33,886 nt of DNA from a virus: positions 1-33,886 of IMG/VR virus record IMGVR_UViG_3300025736_000095. One strand, given 5' to 3'. Each line of letters opens with the position of its first letter. Position 1 is the stretch's first letter. A program made the translations under genes and the position numbers. Positions 14,375 through 27,636 of this stretch are shown piece after piece. The notes under the pieces were generated by a model. The model ran no database searches, was not told the origin of the DNA, and worked only from the letters and a program-made list of their open reading frames with translations.

Positions 14375-14634
14375 TATTCCACCTTCATTCTTTCAAGCCT
14401 CTTTATCATTTCTTCTATGATGCTGTTTACTTGTTCTGTTGGTTCTTCTTTTATTTCTTCATATTTTTCATATTCTTTGAGTTCGCTGAAAATTCCTGTG
14501 TACAACGCATAACAAATCCCGTTGTTATATTTAATCATTAGATCATTGCCGGTTCTTGATACTATTGCTCCACTATAATAAAATTTCTTTTCAGGATGCT
14601 TCGCTAGTTCGTTTATCATTTCTAATCTGTTCAT
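14374..14634 (-). CDS. Small hypothetical protein
   Basis: Product of 86 residues starting MNRLEMINELAKHPEKKFYYSG. The ATG follows GGGGGAAATGTA and overlaps the stop region of the upstream gene; the slightly longer frame begins with TTG. It holds a small beta-rich segment (AIVSRTGNDLMIKYNNGICYALY), followed by a charged helical end (KEYEKYEEIKEEPTEQVNSIIEEMIKRLER). This layout resembles small phage accessory proteins, but I know no function. It is translationally coupled to neighbours on both sides. Confidence 0.65.
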   Translation of the reverse strand: MNRLEMINELAKHPEKKFYYSGAIVSRTGNDLMIKYNNGICYALYTGIFSELKEYEKYEEIKEEPTEQVNSIIEEMIKRLERMKVE

Positions 14635-15638
14635 TACATTTCCCCCCAAACTTTCATAGTTTGTTTAATGTCTTCTATACTACCTGTGTAGCTATCGAAT
14701 ACGCTGTTCAAACGGTTTATTTCTTTTTGATGTTCTAGCCTGCTTGCGTTTATTTGACCTACTTGAGCGTTTTGAAAAGCCAGTCTGTCTTTCATCTTCT
14801 TTAAGAACGGTGCAGCTATTTTCTTTTCGCCCTCTTGATCCATTCCGTAACGTTCTAAACATTTCAACAAGTCTGACTGATCGGGTATGTACAATTCGAT
14901 TCCTAATCCTTTGGCTATGCCTAACCAGAACTCACATGATGGTCTTTGCTTCTCATATTCTGAACCGACTGCCATATCTACGCCATATAAATGTATTCTG
15001 TCAAATCCTTCATAACAAGCAAGTGCTATCATGTATGTGACCGTGTTCGTGAAATAGTTATCGCCTTGAGCGTCCATGTCAGACATCCATTTCTTGATTT
15101 GTTTCAAAGGATATCGAACCGACATAGGAGCTGAATCATAATGCAGATTCATGTATACAGGAATAGGCGCTTTTTTGATCCAGTCCATACGCACCCTAGT
15201 TTTATCGTGGCCGCAAGCAGTCTTTGAACAGTGCTCTTCGTCCTGGCTTTCAAACCACCTTGTAGCTCTTGGTACTAGATTCCAATGGTCGTTAACTCCC
15301 CATATTTCCCAACTTGGGTCATCATAAGGAGCTTCTTTGAAAGTCATTGCAGTACCTACGATTGCAACCTGTTTAATTTTCGTCTTATACAGCTTTGTAA
15401 TGTTCTGCTGAATTATCTTCTTTGCTTTTTCTTTGACTCTTGCCAATGCTACAGGATTCTCGAACCCGTCATCAACAACACCTGTTTCGTTCTGCGGTAT
15501 TCTAATATCGTGTACCTCGTCCAACCATTCTTTGACTTCTTCCTCTGGAGTCCTAGTTATCATCTCTTCGATAACTTCTTGCTTTTCCTCATACCCTTTT
15601 ACTTCCATGCCCTCTGGCATTTTATACGGTTCAGACAT
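14634..15638 (-). CDS. DUF115/Maf-like protein, possible nonulosonate transferase
   Basis: Protein of 334 residues. After an acidic 85-residue start comes a Rossmann-like core: KQVAIVGTAMTF (89-100), then DDPSWEIWGVNDHW (106-119), then TRWFESQDEEH. Later elements are YMNLHYDSAP, TNTVTYMIALACYEGFDRIHLYGVDMAVGSEY (a strand-helix-strand with conserved GVDM) and GIELYIPDQSDLLK. This resembles the DUF115 core of Maf-type proteins, which transfer nonulosonic acids from CMP-sugars to flagellin; related proteins without known function also occur in phages. The last 60 residues are a coiled coil. The gene overlaps a CMP-sugar synthetase gene upstream, which supports a transferase role (inference). It lies in the head module, so virion or cell-surface proteins may be the acceptor. 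Confidence 0.5.
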   Translation of the reverse strand: MSEPYKMPEGMEVKGYEEKQEVIEEMITRTPEEEVKEWLDEVHDIRIPQNETGVVDDGFENPVALARVKEKAKKIIQQNITKLYKTKIKQVAIVGTAMTFKEAPYDDPSWEIWGVNDHWNLVPRATRWFESQDEEHCSKTACGHDKTRVRMDWIKKAPIPVYMNLHYDSAPMSVRYPLKQIKKWMSDMDAQGDNYFTNTVTYMIALACYEGFDRIHLYGVDMAVGSEYEKQRPSCEFWLGIAKGLGIELYIPDQSDLLKCLERYGMDQEGEKKIAAPFLKKMKDRLAFQNAQVGQINASRLEHQKEINRLNSVFDSYTGSIEDIKQTMKVWGEM

Positions 15639-16437
15639 TGCGTTCCCTCCTCAATTTTAGTAATGTTTCTGCTATTTTTACATCGGTTTCATAATGGATA
15701 TCTATAGCGTCATACTCTGGTATAACATGCCCCATTTGTAGAACATGACCCGCTGCGGTTTGTTTGAGTATCCTATTAAGCTCTAAGTCTGCCCACATCT
15801 CAATATAGTTCTTTGCACTCAACTCTTCGTCAGGTGAAACCATGTCTTGTATGAACTCACGATCTAGTCTTACAATTCCATATGCACCGTTCGAAAAATA
15901 CAGGTCGTTGAGATTGTTTGTTATAAACACATTCACGCCCACATTATCAGCATGGAATATAGGAAGTATGGTACCTCTTTCTGGCAATAGCGCCCTGTAA
16001 TTATTTAAGTGTGCTGGCTTTTCCATCTTATGAATTGTTGTGATACCGATAGCTGTTGAATGACTTAACAGTTTATCATACATCTTGTCTATCTCTTCTG
16101 CTCTGATCATCGGATGTGTCGCGTTCGCGTACACGCAATAATCTGCACCCATGCTTTTTTCAATCTCTCTGTGTGCCTGTAACTTTACCCCCGCATCTCC
16201 TAGTAAATCAGTTGCCAACTGCCACGGCCTGTCAATTACCTCTGCACCATACGACCTAGCAATCTCTTTCATTTCTTCGTCTTCTGTTGATACAAAAATC
16301 TTGTCAATACACAATGCGTTGCTCATAGCAATTAGCGGGTATTCCATTAGCTTCAATCCGTCACACTCTTGAACATTCTTTCTGGTTAATCGTTTGGAAC
16401 CCCCACGTACGCATAACAATCCAGCTACCTTTTTCAT
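15631..16437 (-). CDS. CMP-nonulosonate (N-acylneuraminate) cytidylyltransferase-like
   Basis: Protein of 268 residues of the NeuA/PseF family, which activates a nonulosonic acid (such as sialic, legionaminic or pseudaminic acid) with CTP. The nucleotide-binding loop CVRGGSKRLTRKN (residues 9-21) matches the family RGGSKGxPxKN motif, with T replacing the usual Pro. Then follow KIFVSTEDEEMKEIARSYGAEVIDRP, a YANATHPMIRAEEID element (family: QPTSPxRxxxDI), SNGAYGIVRLDREF and the closing AIDIHYETDVKIAETLL (family IDxxxDxxxAE). The core is complete. The product's user is likely the next gene; no sugar-synthesis genes are seen here, so the acid would come from the host. The gene overlaps both neighbours, so it is built into the head operon. 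Confidence 0.8.
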   Translation of the reverse strand: MKKVAGLLCVRGGSKRLTRKNVQECDGLKLMEYPLIAMSNALCIDKIFVSTEDEEMKEIARSYGAEVIDRPWQLATDLLGDAGVKLQAHREIEKSMGADYCVYANATHPMIRAEEIDKMYDKLLSHSTAIGITTIHKMEKPAHLNNYRALLPERGTILPIFHADNVGVNVFITNNLNDLYFSNGAYGIVRLDREFIQDMVSPDEELSAKNYIEMWADLELNRILKQTAAGHVLQMGHVIPEYDAIDIHYETDVKIAETLLKLRRERNV

Positions 16438-19817: not shown

Positions 19818-21098
19818 CTAATAAAATGCCCTAACTGCCTTTACGTCTCCGTACATTGATTCGCTCTCGTATGCGTATCTCAGAGCATCTAGTAAATGGT
19901 TGTTCTTGTCTACTGGTACTCTTAATGCGTTACCGTCTTTGTCCTCTTTCCATTTGTACTGTTGAATCTCGTTCTTAAAGTTCTGACATCTTACATCAAT
20001 TATTATGTGTTGTCTTTGCAGCCAGTCTATACCAAATCTAACTGAATCCTTACCCTTCTTTGCAGATAATGCGTTAATGCCTAATTTGTTTAGCTCGACC
20101 TTACATCTTGGGTCTTCACTATCACAAGTAATATATTCTTTGCCGATAATTGGCTTAAGTGCCTCAGCTAACATATCGTTTGTCATTTCACGTTCGTATA
20201 GTTCGTCTGTTACATATATTGTCTTAAGCTTTTTAGCATAGTGTGTCCTTATCGTTGCATTAGGATCAACCGAGAACCCGAAATCCTGGCCGTTCTTATA
20301 ATTATCAAATGTGTCTAAAATGCATGTCTGCGTACCGTTTATGTCTACAAACTCATTGTGTAAGTCCCTAGCCTCCCAGTTCTTAAATATAACGCTTCCT
20401 AACACACCCCAGTTACCCAATGTGTAAACGTCTCTGTAATACGGATCGGTCTCGTCTTCCAGTCGCCGTCTGTCTTGATCTGTCAAGAACCGATTGTCTT
20501 TGTATGTAGTTTTCAATATGCTTGTCGTGTCGTTTCTGTATGTGGTCTTCTCGTCTTCCCAGCAGTTAAAATATTTCTCGAATATCCAGTGACTTTGTAG
20601 TATAGGATTAAAAGATAATATCATACGCTTTGAAACCTTTGATTTTCCTCTTAACCTTTTTTCAAGTTCCTTGACATCCGATTCCATTACCTCTGTTGCT
20701 TCTTCAATCCAAATGTCTGTGATATTTCCCTTTACGGGTCGGATAGACTTTATCTTCTGAACATCGTCCAAGCCTACAAATAAGATCTGATATCCGTTGG
20801 TACATGTAATTGTCAAATCTGATAAGTTGATTGAGAACAGCTTTTTGTCTTGCTCCCATTTCATTATAACCCTTACCAGCTCATTGAACATTGAAGCTTT
20901 TACATACCTCTTAACATTCCTGATACAAAGATAGTTCCTTCCACCTTTCATCAAATCCCATATACACCTTTGAGCTAAGAACACCGATTTCCCCGAACTT
21001 GAACCACCGAAGTATATTTGTGTATCGGTTTTGTCTTCCAAATAATCAAGATAAACCTTATTGAAAATTGATGGTGGCACTCGTACTGGTGTGTTCAT
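19818..21098 (-). CDS. terL: Terminase large subunit (PBSX family)
   Basis: Protein of 426 residues: packaging ATPase and nuclease. Walker A is GGSSSGKS (31-38), Walker B DIWIEE (128-133) with the catalytic glutamate, and coupling motif SFNP (162-165). The nuclease domain contains DFGFSVDPNA (D272), CDSEDP (D326) and NNHLLDALRY (D404), the three acid positions expected for the RNase H-like nuclease. The family is PBSX/Xtm-type by its order and QIYFGGSSSGKS opening. It docks on the portal. It overlaps the TerS stop by 4 bases. All motifs are intact. Confidence 0.95.
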   Translation of the reverse strand: MNTPVRVPPSIFNKVYLDYLEDKTDTQIYFGGSSSGKSVFLAQRCIWDLMKGGRNYLCIRNVKRYVKASMFNELVRVIMKWEQDKKLFSINLSDLTITCTNGYQILFVGLDDVQKIKSIRPVKGNITDIWIEEATEVMESDVKELEKRLRGKSKVSKRMILSFNPILQSHWIFEKYFNCWEDEKTTYRNDTTSILKTTYKDNRFLTDQDRRRLEDETDPYYRDVYTLGNWGVLGSVIFKNWEARDLHNEFVDINGTQTCILDTFDNYKNGQDFGFSVDPNATIRTHYAKKLKTIYVTDELYEREMTNDMLAEALKPIIGKEYITCDSEDPRCKVELNKLGINALSAKKGKDSVRFGIDWLQRQHIIIDVRCQNFKNEIQQYKWKEDKDGNALRVPVDKNNHLLDALRYAYESESMYGDVKAVRAFY

Positions 21099-21457
21099 TC
21101 GTCATCCTCGTCTAACAACGAAACTGTTATAGTATTGTCTCCTGTCTGTTTGATTTCCTGTTTATCAGACCATCCTAATTGCTTTAACGAGAAAATCGCC
21201 ATAGTAGTATTTATGGTGTCTGCTAAGCCACGCCGTTCAAGTTGAGCTATTTTCTTTTCAATCAATCTTTTTATAGAGTCCGAAAACTTATCACTATCAG
21301 AAGCAAACTCATATAACCGTTGCTTTCTTACCCCTGTAGAATAAGCAAATTCTTCTACAATCGGTATATCAGTCATTTCAATATACGCTTCCATATTCAG
21401 CCTTATATCTTCTATAACTTCTTCGGTATATTTTATTGGTCTTCCTTCTTTTGCCAT
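21095..21457 (-). CDS. terS: Terminase small subunit
   Basis: Product of 120 residues starting MAKEGRPIKYTEEVIEDIR; the ATG follows AAGGTG at a good distance, so the GTG three codons upstream is less likely. The N-terminal half is a helix-turn-helix type DNA-binding region (IVEEFAYSTGVRKQRLYEFAS, with IEKKIAQLERRGL coiled helix), and the end is an acidic C-terminal tail. It recognises the packaging site on phage DNA. It directly precedes TerL and follows a consensus promoter. Length is normal. Confidence 0.88.
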   Translation of the reverse strand: MAKEGRPIKYTEEVIEDIRLNMEAYIEMTDIPIVEEFAYSTGVRKQRLYEFASDSDKFSDSIKRLIEKKIAQLERRGLADTINTTMAIFSLKQLGWSDKQEIKQTGDNTITVSLLDEDDE

Positions 21458-21475
21458 ATCAATCACCTTATAAAT

Positions 21476-21504
21476 ATTATAGTCCCGTGTATGTCTTATG
21501 TCAA
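21476..21504 (-). promoter_or_regulatory. Consensus sigma-A promoter for the packaging/head operon
   Basis: Minus-strand TTGACA (21499-21504) and TATAAT (21476-21481) separated by 17 bp, both exact consensus hexamers. It is between the small zinc-ribbon gene and TerS, just upstream of the TerS ribosome site. It would drive terS and the genes that follow using host RNA polymerase. Confidence 0.85.
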
Positions 21505-21509
21505 ACTAA

Positions 21510-22498: not shown

Positions 22499-22527
22499 AA
22501 AAGGAGCCCCGCCCGAAGACGGGTTCC
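22499..22527 (-). terminator. Hairpin after the binding-protein gene
   Basis: On the minus strand, GGAACCCGTC, UUCG tetraloop, GGCGGGGCTCC, then TTTT. The stem has one A-C mismatch and one bulged G but a GC-rich core. The T run is only four long and runs into the next ribosome site. It could be a terminator, partial attenuator or 3' RNA stabiliser for the binding-protein message. Confidence 0.6.
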
Positions 22528-22533
22528 ATATGT

Positions 22534-24174
22534 CTATCTGTTTACTGCTGTATTATACATTTCTACTAATGTGTCTGCTCCAAGGTCTTTGACCTTTGCT
22601 ACAAAAGCGTCGAACTCGTCCATAGATGTATTGCCGTTTATGAAGTTCGTTATATTCTCTTGTACATAAGTCGTCAACGGTGCTTTTATCTCTTTCAAAG
22701 TCTCTGCTTCTGATTCGTTTAGCGGCACTGGTGGTACAGAATACGTGTACACGTTATCGCCATATATCTTACCGTATGGTTGCCATAACCTAGTGCTGTC
22801 GTTTCCTCGATCGTCAAAATATTCAGCGTTTGCATAGACCTTGACCCAGTTAGAATTTTCGCCCGTCCCGTAAACATCTTTTATAAGTTTAACAAACGAT
22901 TCTTCTTTTGTGACTCCAGGTCTCGGATTCATAGGATTTCCTGCTGCGTTCTGAATGTATGTGATTCCTTCTTCACCCCAATACAATTTATCATGGTTTG
23001 TGAAGTCATACGTCCAGTCTAACATTGCCAGTATATTGTCTAGTGCTTCTGTGTCTGCACTTATAACAGACCCAGTTGTTGAAAATCTTGATTTACCAGC
23101 CCAGCCGTAGAATGTGCCGTTATAACTTGGTGGTACAAACGCTCCAAATGATCCTGACAACCCGTTTTCTGCTAAAAATCTATTGTGTGTTGGTGCATTC
23201 ATCATGTTATCAACCCAGAATTGGCATGTTCCGTCTCCTGCATCTGTGTACCATTGTGGCTCTGGATAAGCCGCCCACTCAGGTGTTAATATGTCTGCTT
23301 CTACCAAAGACTTGAAAAACAATATAGCGTCTTTGAAATTTGCTGTTTCGATCGTGTTTACAAATTCGCTCTTGTATTGGTCGTAGTACGGAAAATCACA
23401 TAATGACGTTCCAAAACTATAACTCAATAGATTCAAGTCTAGAATTCCGTTTCTGTTAGTCCAAATAGGACCGTCCATATTTGATCGCATTTCTGCTAAT
23501 ACATTATACAGATCGTCAAACGTTTCAAATGATGTTGTACCTGATAGATCGGATCTGATAACCCCACCCAAAGAAGATGTCGGGTTGTAGTTTCTGATCG
23601 TTGATGCTAAATAGATATTTCCATCTGCTGCGGTGATCCCTCCTACATAAGATTCAAACTTGTCAAGCCAGCCCTTGTAATGCGGTAACTTGTCAAGATT
23701 ATCAGACAGACTTACCAACATTCCCTTGGGTCCTATCTCTTGAGCCAAATCAAAGTCCGGCGACATTGAAGGTATAAATATATCTCTAGGCCCTACGTTC
23801 ACAATATCCGTCAATTCTCCACCTGCTACCATGACAGACAATCTTTCCATGTACACGTCTATCGGTGTAGCAACTCTTTCGATTGTTAGATTCCCTGCTT
23901 CTCCTAGCCAGTCAAATACTTTCAAATCCATTGAATAATCAATTGAATTATCACGCATCATCCAAGTTATAGTCTTATGTTCCATAACCTTTTCAACTTC
24001 GACTATCTTGTCAACCTCCTTGATAACTTCAACCTCTTTTTCGACTTCTTTGATAACTTCAACTTCTTTTTCAACTATCGATGTAACTGTAACGATTTTC
24101 TCCTTTGCCTTACACGCCCCAAACACTGATGCGATAAGTAGAACTACTAGTAATACACTTAAAATTCTTTTCAT
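22534..24174 (-). CDS. Sugar ABC transporter binding lipoprotein (LplA/YtcQ-like)
   Basis: Protein of 546 residues from MKRILSVLLVVLLIASVFGAC; I chose this ATG, 6 bases after GAGAGGAG, over a GTG 16 codons upstream. It has a lipoprotein signal peptide, with the lipobox cysteine at residue 21. Residues 35-63 are a repeated charged linker (EKEVEVIKEV twice, then DKIVEVEKV). The remainder, from HKTITWMMRDNS, is an extracellular solute-binding fold of the large LplA/YtcQ group, about the usual length for this group (500-560). It would deliver an oligosaccharide to the two permeases upstream; substrate unknown. Other possibility: a pheromone- or signal-type binder. A hairpin follows. No ATPase is present nearby. 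Confidence 0.88.
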   Translation of the reverse strand: MKRILSVLLVVLLIASVFGACKAKEKIVTVTSIVEKEVEVIKEVEKEVEVIKEVDKIVEVEKVMEHKTITWMMRDNSIDYSMDLKVFDWLGEAGNLTIERVATPIDVYMERLSVMVAGGELTDIVNVGPRDIFIPSMSPDFDLAQEIGPKGMLVSLSDNLDKLPHYKGWLDKFESYVGGITAADGNIYLASTIRNYNPTSSLGGVIRSDLSGTTSFETFDDLYNVLAEMRSNMDGPIWTNRNGILDLNLLSYSFGTSLCDFPYYDQYKSEFVNTIETANFKDAILFFKSLVEADILTPEWAAYPEPQWYTDAGDGTCQFWVDNMMNAPTHNRFLAENGLSGSFGAFVPPSYNGTFYGWAGKSRFSTTGSVISADTEALDNILAMLDWTYDFTNHDKLYWGEEGITYIQNAAGNPMNPRPGVTKEESFVKLIKDVYGTGENSNWVKVYANAEYFDDRGNDSTRLWQPYGKIYGDNVYTYSVPPVPLNESEAETLKEIKAPLTTYVQENITNFINGNTSMDEFDAFVAKVKDLGADTLVEMYNTAVNR

Positions 24175-24225
24175 TTGTTGCTCCTCTCTTTTTTTTATGT
24201 TGCAAACTTTTTCCCGCCTCACCTC

Positions 24226-24444
24226 CTATTCCTTTGGCATTTCATAATAACAATCTGCACAAGTCATATGCCCCCATATCAAATTTATAACCTCTTGTGT
24301 TCTGTCTTCTGATGAATAATTTCCAAGAACTATTGATTTATTATCTGTAACTAACTTTGTGATTCTAAGTTTATTACCTATAAATTCAGTGCCTATATCC
24401 TCAGATTTTATAATTGCTCTCCTGTCTTGTGATAGTATATACAT
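24226..24444 (-). CDS. Small phage protein between permease and binding protein
   Basis: Product of 72 residues: MYILSQDRRAIIKSEDIGTEFIGNKLRITKLVT, then VLGNYSSEDRTQEVINLIWGHM. This resembles a common phage family with a YILSQD start and a (I)(V)LGxY(x)(S/T)EERAxEVL end. Function unknown. It separates two transporter genes, so the importer genes are not contiguous. GGGGGG before the ATG. Confidence 0.7.
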   Translation of the reverse strand: MYILSQDRRAIIKSEDIGTEFIGNKLRITKLVTDNKSIVLGNYSSEDRTQEVINLIWGHMTCADCYYEMPKE

Positions 24445-24452
24445 TTCCCCCC

Positions 24453-25322
24453 CTAACCTTTTATTGAACCCACCAACACGCCTTTTGCAAAATACTTCTG
24501 TACGAAAGGATATACGAAAATCGTAGGTCCCAAACTTATCAGTATTACTGACATCTGTATTGATCTAGTAAAGCCCATCTCGTTCATTCCGACCTTTAAT
24601 CCTGATATCATCTCCTCACCTCTGAAATTGCCTGTTATGACTAATTTTCTGAGAACCATCATCAAAGGTTGCTTGTCTTGTGAAGTTAAATATAACAACG
24701 CCGGGAAAAATGAGTTCCATTGTGCTACTACTGCGAATAATCCCAACGTTGCTATTATTGCTTTAGATAAAGGTATCACCACCTTTCCAAATATCCAGAA
24801 ATGGTTTGCTCCGTCTATACGTGCTGAGTCTATTAATGCTTTTGGTATTCCTCTAAAGTTTGTCCTAAAAAGGATAATGTTCCAAGCCGACAAAGACGGT
24901 AAAATCACTATTGCCCATATTGTGTCTAGTAACCCTAATTTCTTAATGATTAAAAACGTCGGTATCATTCCACCGTTGAAAAACATTGTAACCGTAAAGA
25001 AAATCATTATGTATTTTCCTGCTTTGAATCCCTTGACTGTGAGTACATACGCCGCTGTAGTTCCGAGTATCAGACTTAGCAAAGTTCCTGTAGCCGCATA
25101 CAATACCGAGTTTGCGTATCCCCGCCATATTGTTTTTGTTTTCAATACAGCTTCTATAGCGTTAAACTGAATCCCCTTAGGTATCAGATAAACTGTTCCG
25201 TTTGCTATCTCATGCGAATCTGATATAGATATATTTATCATGTACACAAAAGGATATAAACAAATCACTAATAAAATTGTCAAAGAGCAGTATAGAAATA
25301 TGTCAAATATCTTCATTCCCAT
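24453..25322 (-). CDS. Sugar ABC transporter permease (LplC/YtcP-like)
   Basis: Inner permease of 289 residues, ABC CUT1 type of the YtcP/LplC group. There are about six membrane helices beginning FLYCSLTILLVICLYPFVYM. The EAA loop is intact (residues 163-184, LIDSARIDGANHFWIFG), and the GGMIPTFLIIKKLGL and FGSVVIP-like elements of the family occur. It would pair with the upstream permease and bind the ATPase through the EAA loop. Length is normal. The start overlaps the preceding 64-residue gene by 10 bases, so it is fully embedded in the phage operon. Confidence 0.9.
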   Translation of the reverse strand: MGMKIFDIFLYCSLTILLVICLYPFVYMINISISDSHEIANGTVYLIPKGIQFNAIEAVLKTKTIWRGYANSVLYAATGTLLSLILGTTAAYVLTVKGFKAGKYIMIFFTVTMFFNGGMIPTFLIIKKLGLLDTIWAIVILPSLSAWNIILFRTNFRGIPKALIDSARIDGANHFWIFGKVVIPLSKAIIATLGLFAVVAQWNSFFPALLYLTSQDKQPLMMVLRKLVITGNFRGEEMISGLKVGMNEMGFTRSIQMSVILISLGPTIFVYPFVQKYFAKGVLVGSIKG

Positions 25323-25507
25323 ATTCCAACGTCTATAAATTTACCATTTTCGTCATACGAAAACACAGCACAGAACAAAGCATATCCTTTTATTTTTTCT
25401 TGTCCTTCTTGTAGATATATTCTCTTTCGCCCTGGCTCCTTTCCCTCATCAAAACCAATACCTAAAGATTTGAATAGTTCTATTGTTTTTTTATAGTCGG
25501 TTACCAT
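25313..25507 (-). CDS. Small phage protein between the two permeases
   Basis: Product of 64 residues, MVTDYKKTIELFKSLGIGFDEGKE, ending KGYALFCAVFSYDENGKFIDVGIWE. This ending (F..E.GKF...GIWE) is shared by a small phage protein family that I recognise only by pattern. Its ends overlap both permease genes. No membrane segment or catalytic motif. It may be unrelated to transport and merely lie between the transporter genes. Confidence 0.7.
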   Translation of the reverse strand: MVTDYKKTIELFKSLGIGFDEGKEPGRKRIYLQEGQEKIKGYALFCAVFSYDENGKFIDVGIWE

Positions 25508-26379
25508 ATACTTGCCTCCCCTGCTTTTTTAGATAGTTGGTTTGCCCCCACTAACAAACCAAAATTGATGATTGAGTTGAATAATCCTGCTGCGGTTGCA
25601 AACGAGTAGTCCCTACCCATTATTCCGCGTCTGTATACATAAGTTGTGATAACGTCTGCTGTTTCATAAGTTCCTGGATTGTACATGATAAAGACTTTCT
25701 CAAATCCCACATTCATTATACTACCGAAAGTGAGTATAAGCAATATTACAATAGTCGGCATGATGCCTGGTACGGTAATAAATCGCATTTTCTGAAATCT
25801 GTTTGCTCCTTCGATTGATGCACTTTCGTAAAGTTCAATACTAATTCCAGATAAAGCAGCCATGAAAATTATTGTCCGCCATCCCGTGCCTTCCCAAATG
25901 CTAGAGCCTACATACATCGGCCTAAACCAGTTCTTGTCGTTGAAGAATAGCTGTTTGTCAAAACCTAGCTTGTCAATGATCTGATTCACCATTCCCCTTG
26001 AACTTAACACTTCCATCATCAAACCTACGATTATGACTGTTGCTACAAAATGAGGTAAATAGCTTATTGACTGAAACATCCGTTTGAACGGTTTGTTCTT
26101 GACTTCGTTTATCATCAAGGCTAGAAATATCGGAGCAGGAAACGCAAGGATTATCATATAAAAATTAATCAATACCGTGTTTTTAAGTATCCTCAAAAAA
26201 TAAGGATCGTTCACAAACTGTTTAAAGTATTTCAACCCTACGAACCCTGACCCGAAAAGTCCTGACATTACGTCATATTTTCTAACTGCAATAACTAACC
26301 CTGCCATTGGTACATATAAAAATATAAAAAACAATAAAATAGTCGGTACAATCATCCAGTATAGTTCTTTGTTTTTCAC
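25501..26379 (-). CDS. Sugar ABC transporter permease (LplB/YteP-like)
   Basis: Permease of 292 residues, ABC CUT1 type, with six predicted membrane helices. The first is ELYWMIVPTILLFFIFLYVPMAGL. The EAA loop (184-205: YESASIEGANRFQKMRFITVPG) is intact. Typical LplB features include FVGLKYFKQFVND, ISYLPHFVAT and the closing GKATYS-like end AGEASIW. It forms the heterodimeric channel with the next permease. Its ATG overlaps the stop of a phage zinc-ribbon gene by 4 bases. Length normal; no frameshift or lost motif. The likely substrate is an oligosaccharide by family. Confidence 0.9.
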   Translation of the reverse strand: MKNKELYWMIVPTILLFFIFLYVPMAGLVIAVRKYDVMSGLFGSGFVGLKYFKQFVNDPYFLRILKNTVLINFYMIILAFPAPIFLALMINEVKNKPFKRMFQSISYLPHFVATVIIVGLMMEVLSSRGMVNQIIDKLGFDKQLFFNDKNWFRPMYVGSSIWEGTGWRTIIFMAALSGISIELYESASIEGANRFQKMRFITVPGIMPTIVILLILTFGSIMNVGFEKVFIMYNPGTYETADVITTYVYRRGIMGRDYSFATAAGLFNSIINFGLLVGANQLSKKAGEASIW

Positions 26380-26594
26380 ACACTCTCCTCACACTCTTTA
26401 CAAACTTGTCTACCCTCAGGAACATACTTACCACAACAAACACAGGTGTCTTTTTCTGTATAAGGTTTAAACGTATTCATCCAGTCTGCTATACTTTCTA
26501 TTTTCACCTTGCTCATTTCATGGCACAAAGCCTCTGCATCTACATTAGAATAATCAAAATCTGATATGCTGGCCGGTGTTTGTTTTTTGCTCAT
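26376..26594 (-). CDS. Small protein with C-terminal zinc ribbon
   Basis: Product of 72 residues. The end, CVCCGKYVPEGRQVCKECEES (two CxxC pairs at roughly residues 50-53 and 65-68), is a zinc ribbon. The N-terminal part is acidic and helical, suggesting a small adaptor or regulator. GGAGGG precedes the ATG, and the stop overlaps the permease start. Function unknown; such proteins are common near phage replication genes. Confidence 0.7.
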   Translation of the reverse strand: MSKKQTPASISDFDYSNVDAEALCHEMSKVKIESIADWMNTFKPYTEKDTCVCCGKYVPEGRQVCKECEESV

Positions 26595-26595
26595 T

Positions 26596-27390
26596 TCATC
26601 CCTCCTTCAACTGTTCCTTAAGTGGATCCATATACAAATCTTCAATATCTGATTCCTCATAGTCACGTTCTTGAAAACCTTTTTCGTTGGTTGCTTCGGG
26701 TATTTCATCAAGCCACCCCTTGGAGTTCAGCCAAGTTGATGGGTATGGAATAAATTGCCCGTTGTCTTTTTTCCAGTCCGCTGTTTTTTTAGCTTTTTCT
26801 ATTGCAGCAATGATAGTTTTCAAAAGTTGTTCATCAGGATTGATCTTTTTGAATGTCTTTTCTGCTTGCCCTTTACTCATTTTTCTTGGATATGCTTTCC
26901 AAAAGTTATCAAAAAGAGCTATGTATTTATCTATATCTATATCTTTATCTATATCTGTCTCTAACTCTTGGTTGGACACGTTGGACTTGGGTTGGACATT
27001 ATTAGGACTATGTACAACTTCCAATTCCTTTTTATCCCTTTGCTTCCTTTTTTGTTCAGCCCAATAGGTTTCTGTGCCTAATAATTTCTGTATTCCGTTC
27101 ATGTAAATAGTGTCATCATCAAGAACATCAATCATATCTAAACTCTTTAATAGCTTTAATGCGCTCCTGACAATATCAATATTTGTGTGTGTGATGGTTG
27201 AAAGCATGTCTTCATTGTAAGGCATCATTTCATTAAATCTTAAGTTCCCATCATGATCAACACTTTCAACAAGTAATTTCAAATAGAACAAGACATAGTC
27301 TTTACCATTAGGCAGATCTTCAATAATTTGGATATCGTGCCTTTTGAAAAAATCGCGTTTTAGCTTTAACCAATAATATTTTTTTGTCAT
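26596..27390 (-). CDS. Phage replisome organiser / DnaD-like replication protein
   Basis: Protein of 264 residues. Residues 1-130 are the N-terminal replisome-organiser domain, a winged helix: KKYYWLKLKRDFFKRHDIQIIEDLPNGKDYVLFYLKLLVES. After an acidic low-complexity linker (DIDKDIDIDK), the C-terminal domain YIALFDNFWKAYPRKMSKGQAEKTFKKI... ends PYPSTWLNSKGWLDEIPE, a DnaD-like type typical of phage initiators. It probably binds the phage origin inside this gene and loads the host helicase via its loader; no own loader is seen next to it. SD GGAG at 7 bases from the ATG. Confidence 0.88.
   Translation of the reverse strand: MTKKYYWLKLKRDFFKRHDIQIIEDLPNGKDYVLFYLKLLVESVDHDGNLRFNEMMPYNEDMLSTITHTNIDIVRSALKLLKSLDMIDVLDDDTIYMNGIQKLLGTETYWAEQKRKQRDKKELEVVHSPNNVQPKSNVSNQELETDIDKDIDIDKYIALFDNFWKAYPRKMSKGQAEKTFKKINPDEQLLKTIIAAIEKAKKTADWKKDNGQFIPYPSTWLNSKGWLDEIPEATNEKGFQERDYEESDIEDLYMDPLKEQLKEG
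26931..26997. other. Candidate replication origin inside the replication gene
   Basis: AT-rich direct repeats of TATATC/TATCTT type (26931-26958) lie next to three copies of GTTGGAC (26971-26977, 26980-26986, 26991-26997). Repeats in the linker region of the initiator gene are the usual site of origin iterons in several Gram-positive phages. No experiment or cumulative skew is available; the low-complexity repeats may simply encode an acidic linker. Confidence 0.35.
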
Positions 27391-27607: not shown

Positions 27608-27636
27608 ATTATACTACTAATTAGCTTGTTTGTAAA
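27608..27636 (-). promoter_or_regulatory. Sigma-A promoter before the HTH and replication genes
   Basis: TTTACA (27631-27636) and exact TATAAT (27608-27613) with a 17-bp spacer, minus strand. The HTH gene starts about 25 bases downstream of the -10 box. It is in a 77-base gap, so the genes downstream, including replication and transporter genes, probably start here. Confidence 0.8.

Follow-up and report, generated by a model that had tools for sequence, protein, structure and literature searches.

An lplBCA-type carbohydrate importer gene set kept intact in a clade of tailed phages

The locus analyzed here raises the question of whether genes for a carbohydrate ABC importer can be a working part of a tailed phage, and what they would do there. 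The window, that is, the whole stretch of DNA that was analyzed, is the complete IMG/VR record IMGVR_UViG_3300025736_000095 of 33,886 bases. It contains lplB, lplC and lplA as open, full-length ORFs on the minus strand (Table 1), so that none of the three genes is decayed, as the earlier note had claimed. The two permeases, described there as CUT1 proteins with intact EAA loops, are confirmed as such. Pfam BPD_transp_1 is matched above the cut-off by both (E 1.7e-12 for LplB; Table 1 for LplC), and the EAA-type loops, which were read directly, are LYESASIEGANRFQKMRFITVPG in LplB and LIDSARIDGANHFWIFGKVVIPLS in LplC. LplB gives a profile match to AlgM1 (4tqu) with E 7e-101, and a simple scan detects 5-6 hydrophobic segments per permease. 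EAA loops, which are a membership feature of CUT1 importers, are present in the permeases of all four phages with both permease genes. The importer genes match the rest of the phage in GC content. By sequence and predicted fold, lplBCA is classed as a CUT1 carbohydrate importer.

Table 1. Coordinates of the importer genes, their neighbors and associated signals in the window.
Feature	Coordinates	Strand	Remarks
Sigma-70-type promoter	27608..27636	-	11/12 matches; upstream of the operon running through lplBCA
Replisome organiser	26596..27390	-	Upstream of importer; Phage_rep_org_N, Pfam PF09681 E 3e-28
Small zinc-ribbon-like ORF	26376..26594	-	Translationally coupled to lplB; sub-threshold DZR_2 match, E 0.003
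lplB	25501..26379	-	CUT1 permease subunit 1, AlgM1-like; GTG start overlaps upstream stop
Small ORF	25313..25507	-	Between lplB and lplC, overlaps both permeases; varies among relatives
lplC	24453..25322	-	CUT1 permease subunit 2; Pfam BPD_transp_1 E 6e-10, EAA loop intact
Small phage-like ORF	24226..24444	-	Between lplC and lplA; weak PHROG 28508/4601 matches, E 9e-6/8e-5
lplA	22534..24222	-	AlgQ/Smon0123-type solute-binding lipoprotein; probable true start ATG 24174
Terminator-like hairpin with T tail	22508..22523	-	After lplA; weak
Sigma-70-type promoter	21476..21504	-	12/12 matches; upstream of terS, divides importer from packaging operon
terS	21095-21466	-	Downstream of importer; PHROG terminase small subunit
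terL	19818-21098	-	Downstream of importer; Terminase_3 E 3e-47
PseF/NeuA-like cytidylyltransferase	15631..16437	-	Head cluster; CTP_transf_3 E 3e-12; possible importer partner
Maf/CstII-like glycosyltransferase-fold protein	14634..15638	-	Head cluster; model m4580d796b856; possible importer partner

LplA consists of a signal peptide, a cysteine, a charged linker and a two-domain binding protein. The signal peptide and the cysteine are present in all four full-length phage LplA proteins, and the lipobox is non-canonical in the window and L008 (GAC, FGC) and canonical in L024 and L025. A Pfam search with LplA gives no match. The AlphaFold model of LplA (m71f89585a516, mean pLDDT 77) matches AlgQ2 with a Z score of 30.3 and an rmsd of 3.3 over 459 aligned residues and the Smon0123-type protein 5gx8 with a Z score of 29.9, and it matches FusA and Blon_2347 less closely. 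LplA has the predicted features of the lipid-anchored, AlgQ/MalE-fold solute-binding protein of a CUT1 importer, with the non-canonical lipobox in the window. The earlier description of LplA as a full-length lipoprotein stands with respect to the open ORF and the AlgQ2 fold, with one correction to the start codon: ATG at 24174, which is preceded by GAGGAG and gives a protein of 546 aa, is more likely to be the start than GTG at 24222. AlgQ carries an EF-hand calcium loop, whereas a loop of this kind (such as DPNGNGKADE) is missing in all five phage LplA proteins that cover the region, and phage LplA falls outside the AlgQ/FusA subgroup of calcium-binding proteins. Loss of this loop as a peculiarity of the phages is ruled out, because the nearest cellular relatives (L035, L042, L047, L051 and L053) are also without it.

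All genes with a known phage function in the window are located on the minus strand, in the order ERF-like recombinase, RusA, replisome organiser, importer, terS, terL and portal, followed by genes for a MuF-like head protein, scaffold, P22-like capsid, tape measure and Rv2525c-type lysin. With the replisome organiser on one side and terS and terL on the other, the importer lies inside a phage operon between replication and packaging genes, as initially described. The tight coupling ascribed to these genes is seen in start and stop codons that overlap or nearly overlap across the importer genes, with the addition that small phage-like ORFs sit between the three genes and vary from phage to phage. 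L024 and L025 each have a sigma-70 promoter with 12/12 matches immediately upstream of lplA, against an expectation of 0.05 per 7 kb. The importer is probably part of an early or middle unit transcribed by the host polymerase, because of the positions of the promoters in the window (Table 1), L024 and L025. The hairpin after lplA was rejected as a real terminator: 2 hairpins are found in the region versus 4.1 expected by chance. A 62-bp block around the terS promoter (21447-21508) is 98% conserved in L007, while the adjoining DNA is 80-86% conserved; despite this conserved block upstream, the terS proteins of L007 and the window are 35% identical.

Relatives were gathered from IMG/VR with TerL and with an LplA alignment; a single-protein LplC search of viral contigs gives no match. 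The lplB, lplC and lplA genes are present in identical order and upstream of the terminase genes in L008 (11.3 kb), L024/G001 (37.5 kb) and L025/G002 (29.9 kb), and these three and the window are four independent IMG/VR phages with the same importer order and site. The contigs L011, L026/G003 and L184 stop within lplA. Homologous phages in which the genes are lacking or broken, a case that the earlier note had considered damaging to its reading, are not among the clade contigs that reach the site: lplA is present in all seven and intact as far as each contig extends. The other damaging case was an assembly chimera. Such a chimera, or host sequence wrongly binned as viral, has a negligible probability. 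Most permease matches in the annotated phage collection are indeed located in unannotated records resembling bacterial contigs, but the three genes of the window are separated by phage ORFs, the separately assembled L008, L024 and L025 are arranged alike, the importer is monophyletic and co-diverges with TerL, and a contig of the same sequence, assembled from a different metagenome, spans the junction of lplA and the downstream region. L006 covers this 3' junction and matches the window at 100% over 4,089 bases. The importer set is not an assembly artefact; a chimera is refuted by the independent phages. Other metagenomes contain contigs that are the same as the window or nearly so, and the count of matching contigs is a lower bound, as near-identical records may be omitted from searches. 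Every known carrier is a metagenomic contig. One of the source sites, Ace Lake, is an oxygen-free Antarctic lake, from which the source metagenome 3300035698 was co-assembled (PMC8542988). No protein of the early region of G001 or G002 has a detectable counterpart in the window, and therefore the importer has been inherited with the late module.

In the TerL tree, all seven carriers fall into one clade (SH-aLRT 99), which also includes L007, a contig too short to reach the importer site. In the tree of LplB and LplC, the phages form one clade (SH-aLRT 100) apart from the Bacillota homologues, with a stem of 0.69 changes per column, and the nearest cellular rows are from Bacillota. In both trees, L024 and L025 are grouped, and the window and L008 lie outside this pair. 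As judged from these phylogenies, the importer is of single origin in this phage clade. It is not found in outgroup phages and Clostridia prophages within the 3.5-23 kb upstream of terL that was searched where the sequence is long enough; the Clostridia prophages with the closest TerL have terL in common, most of them also the portal, but are without the importer. The best identities to cellular proteins are about 50% for LplB, 43% for LplC and about 23% for LplA, and the amino acid identities of the importer proteins between phages are 53-80%. The dN values of the importer genes are 0.09-0.43, in the same range as those of TerL and portal, with synonymous sites that are saturated in most pairs, and the importer is therefore under strong purifying selection. 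As genes of cellular origin that are retained under selection in a phage genome, lplBCA are candidate auxiliary metabolic genes, which would alter host metabolism during infection.

An ABC ATPase (PF00005) is not found in the window, G001, G002 and G003, which may be incomplete records; the control is positive in 14/14 genomes. Several importers of this type share one ATPase (MsmX, MsmK) in Bacillota; this ATPase is interchangeable between species, and the use of a shared host ATPase is established for YesOPQ and YtcPQ-YteP of B. subtilis (PMC7658222). Three genes would therefore suffice for the phage. An integrase or resolvase (PF00589, PF00239) is not found in these four possibly incomplete records either, with positive controls. 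The proposal that the importer is a lysogenic fitness factor is unsupported, because it would call for such a tyrosine or serine recombinase. TerL proteins with 52-60% identity are encoded in 5/391 Clostridia genomes, and together with the Bacillota-type permeases this makes a member of the Clostridia the most likely host.

Selection has preserved the importer set in intact form; infected cells may thus be made to take up one particular sugar-like molecule, with the host's own motor protein as the drive. It is fairly probable that the set is a working importer that borrows the host ATPase and brings in one ligand, in an apparently non-integrating clade of tailed phages of anaerobic Bacillota. 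According to this model, the carriers are a single clade of apparently non-integrating phages, whose hosts would be anaerobic Bacillota, probably Clostridia. The lipid-anchored binding protein and both membrane subunits would come from the phage, and the host would add its shared, multitask MsmX-type ATPase, in the way it powers its own importers of the LplABC/YtcPQ type, which have no ATPase either. Production of the complex would take place during infection, from host-type promoters. The cargo would be one specific oligosaccharide or sugar, probably complex or acidic, and its import would boost the supply of carbon, energy or precursors for phage production.

Comparison of LplA with LplB points to a single ligand. 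Between phages, the identity of LplA is 0.62-0.65 at an LplB identity of 0.61-0.72, and the closest pair has 0.74 at 0.80. Between cellular importers, the identity of LplA is mostly 0.24-0.46 (58% for one pair) at an LplB identity of 0.50-0.75. Phage LplA is as well conserved as LplB, whereas the binding protein of cells diverges much faster; in cells the binding protein varies with the substrate, and in the phage clade it does not. Therefore, one ligand is probably retained across the phage clade. Phage-type LplA is not found in 398 Bacillota genomes, and its function could have shifted, because the identity to any cellular binding protein found is so low. The lplBCA products might instead serve in superinfection exclusion or receptor interference, either by blocking DNA entry or by masking or displacing a transporter used as a receptor. 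Common exclusion factors include lipoproteins and small membrane proteins, and LplA is a lipoprotein encoded in an early or middle position. However, one protein would be enough for exclusion, while three subunits are preserved over a long evolutionary time, with each EAA loop and the entire binding fold, and LplA is as constant as the permeases, although exclusion proteins in an arms race are expected to diversify. Exclusion is accordingly considered improbable, and the conservation of all three parts, especially LplA, favors import of a defined ligand.

Two genes in the head cluster are possible partners of the importer (Table 1). The cytidylyltransferase matches TIGR03584 (PseF) with E 3e-22, which is below the cut-off, and CMP-NeuAc synthetase in PDB with E 5e-30. 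The model of the transferase-fold protein (pLDDT 74, pTM 0.57) matches the CstII sialyltransferase with a Foldseek E of 5e-6 and Maf (5mu5) with a Z score of 10.7 and an rmsd of 3.3 over 153 aligned residues. This protein gives no sequence-family match, though it is well conserved; relatives of it are present on 55 IMG/VR contigs. The pair suggests CMP-nonulosonate chemistry and possibly glycosylates the virion or a surface; that the importer feeds this chemistry is a guess. In such a route, the importer would bring in a nonulosonic-type or other acidic sugar, the phage cytidylyltransferase would activate it, and the transferase would attach it to the virion or the host surface. Both enzyme genes are present in all clade genomes in which the head cluster is sequenced, the cytidylyltransferase is nearest to PseF/NeuA, the transferase model matches both CstII and Maf, and the fold neighbors of LplA, AlgQ2 and Smon0123, bind uronic-acid oligosaccharides. 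The nearest cellular importer (L035) adjoins genes for a DHDPS/NanA-type lyase, a BNR sialidase-like protein and GH106, but another near cellular importer (L047) adjoins a GH95 fucosidase gene instead. The enzymes beside the cellular importers differ, and therefore the phage ligand is not readable from these neighbors. In addition, many phages encode transferase relatives but show no importer, the importer is not adjacent to the two enzyme genes, and the cytidylyltransferase, besides its score, evolves fast (25-30% identity). This route is therefore unlikely, and its full form, in which LplABC powered by the host ATPase, a CMP-sugar synthetase and a transferase decorate the phage's own capsid or the infected cell, is slightly less likely still.

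The closest known systems include CUT1 importers of Bacillota that have no ATPase gene of their own. Like LplABC and YtcQ-YteP-YtcP, the phage set consists of two BPD_transp_1 permeases and a lipoprotein binding protein in the order B-C-A, with no ATPase gene. Unlike them, it is located in a phage genome, is split by phage ORFs, forms its own deep clade, has a binding protein with only about 23% identity and has no adjacent sugar-degrading enzymes. The nearest solved structures by profile and fold are those of AlgM1-AlgM2-AlgQ2, the alginate system of Sphingomonas sp. A1, and Smon0123, which binds a glycosaminoglycan disaccharide. The alginate system has its own dedicated ATPase, AlgS. Cyanophage PstS and other phage transport genes likewise provide an uptake component for the infected host. 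Each of those is a lone binding protein or a carrier made of one polypeptide, whereas the set described here keeps the binding protein and both channel subunits together. Entomopoxviruses and mimivirus also have ABC transporter genes, but these encode their own nucleotide-binding domains, belong to viruses of eukaryotic hosts and are not CUT1 importers (PMC6163359).

Within the collections and literature searched, the importer set is undescribed in phages, in agreement with the statement of the earlier note that no described phage is known to have it. Literature coverage is incomplete, and no description of a phage sugar ABC importer was found in it. The annotated phage collection gives 106 matches to LplC, 94 to LplB and none to LplA. 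Those permease matches that are best or were inspected are unannotated gut or Listeria/Enterococcus records resembling bacterial contigs and were rejected as phages, and a few that are plain Salmonella genome records were left out of the phage count; no convincing counterpart remains. BFVD gives one weak match to a solute-binding protein, labeled as inovirus. PHROGs 1577 and 20211, which have no known function, resemble the permeases and may stem from records of the bacterial-contig type. Many of the phage records MT83xxxx, OR846xxx-OR849xxx and PQ520xxx are unannotated and look bacterial, with whole sugar-transport operons.

Single uptake proteins are a known cargo of phages. If the preferred reading is true, a phage takes over nutrient import as a module that relies on the host ATPase, and three genes would be enough for a virus to exploit the shared-ATPase design of Bacillota importers. 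Because the importer arose once, sits at one site and has a binding protein that varies unusually little, assays of one protein are enough to look for the ligand, and with such assays, what limits phage production in anaerobic Bacillota becomes directly testable.

Three further proteins of these phages were observed. The Rv2525c-like protein with a glycoside hydrolase fold at the record end (44-814) is a probable lysin. A DUF4832/DUF4874 protein is encoded downstream of the tape measure gene (1311-2732), and a match to it was not found in phage families or G001-G003. The tail region of G001 encodes a Kelch beta-propeller protein (L030:10612-11949), which is possibly receptor- or glycan-binding.
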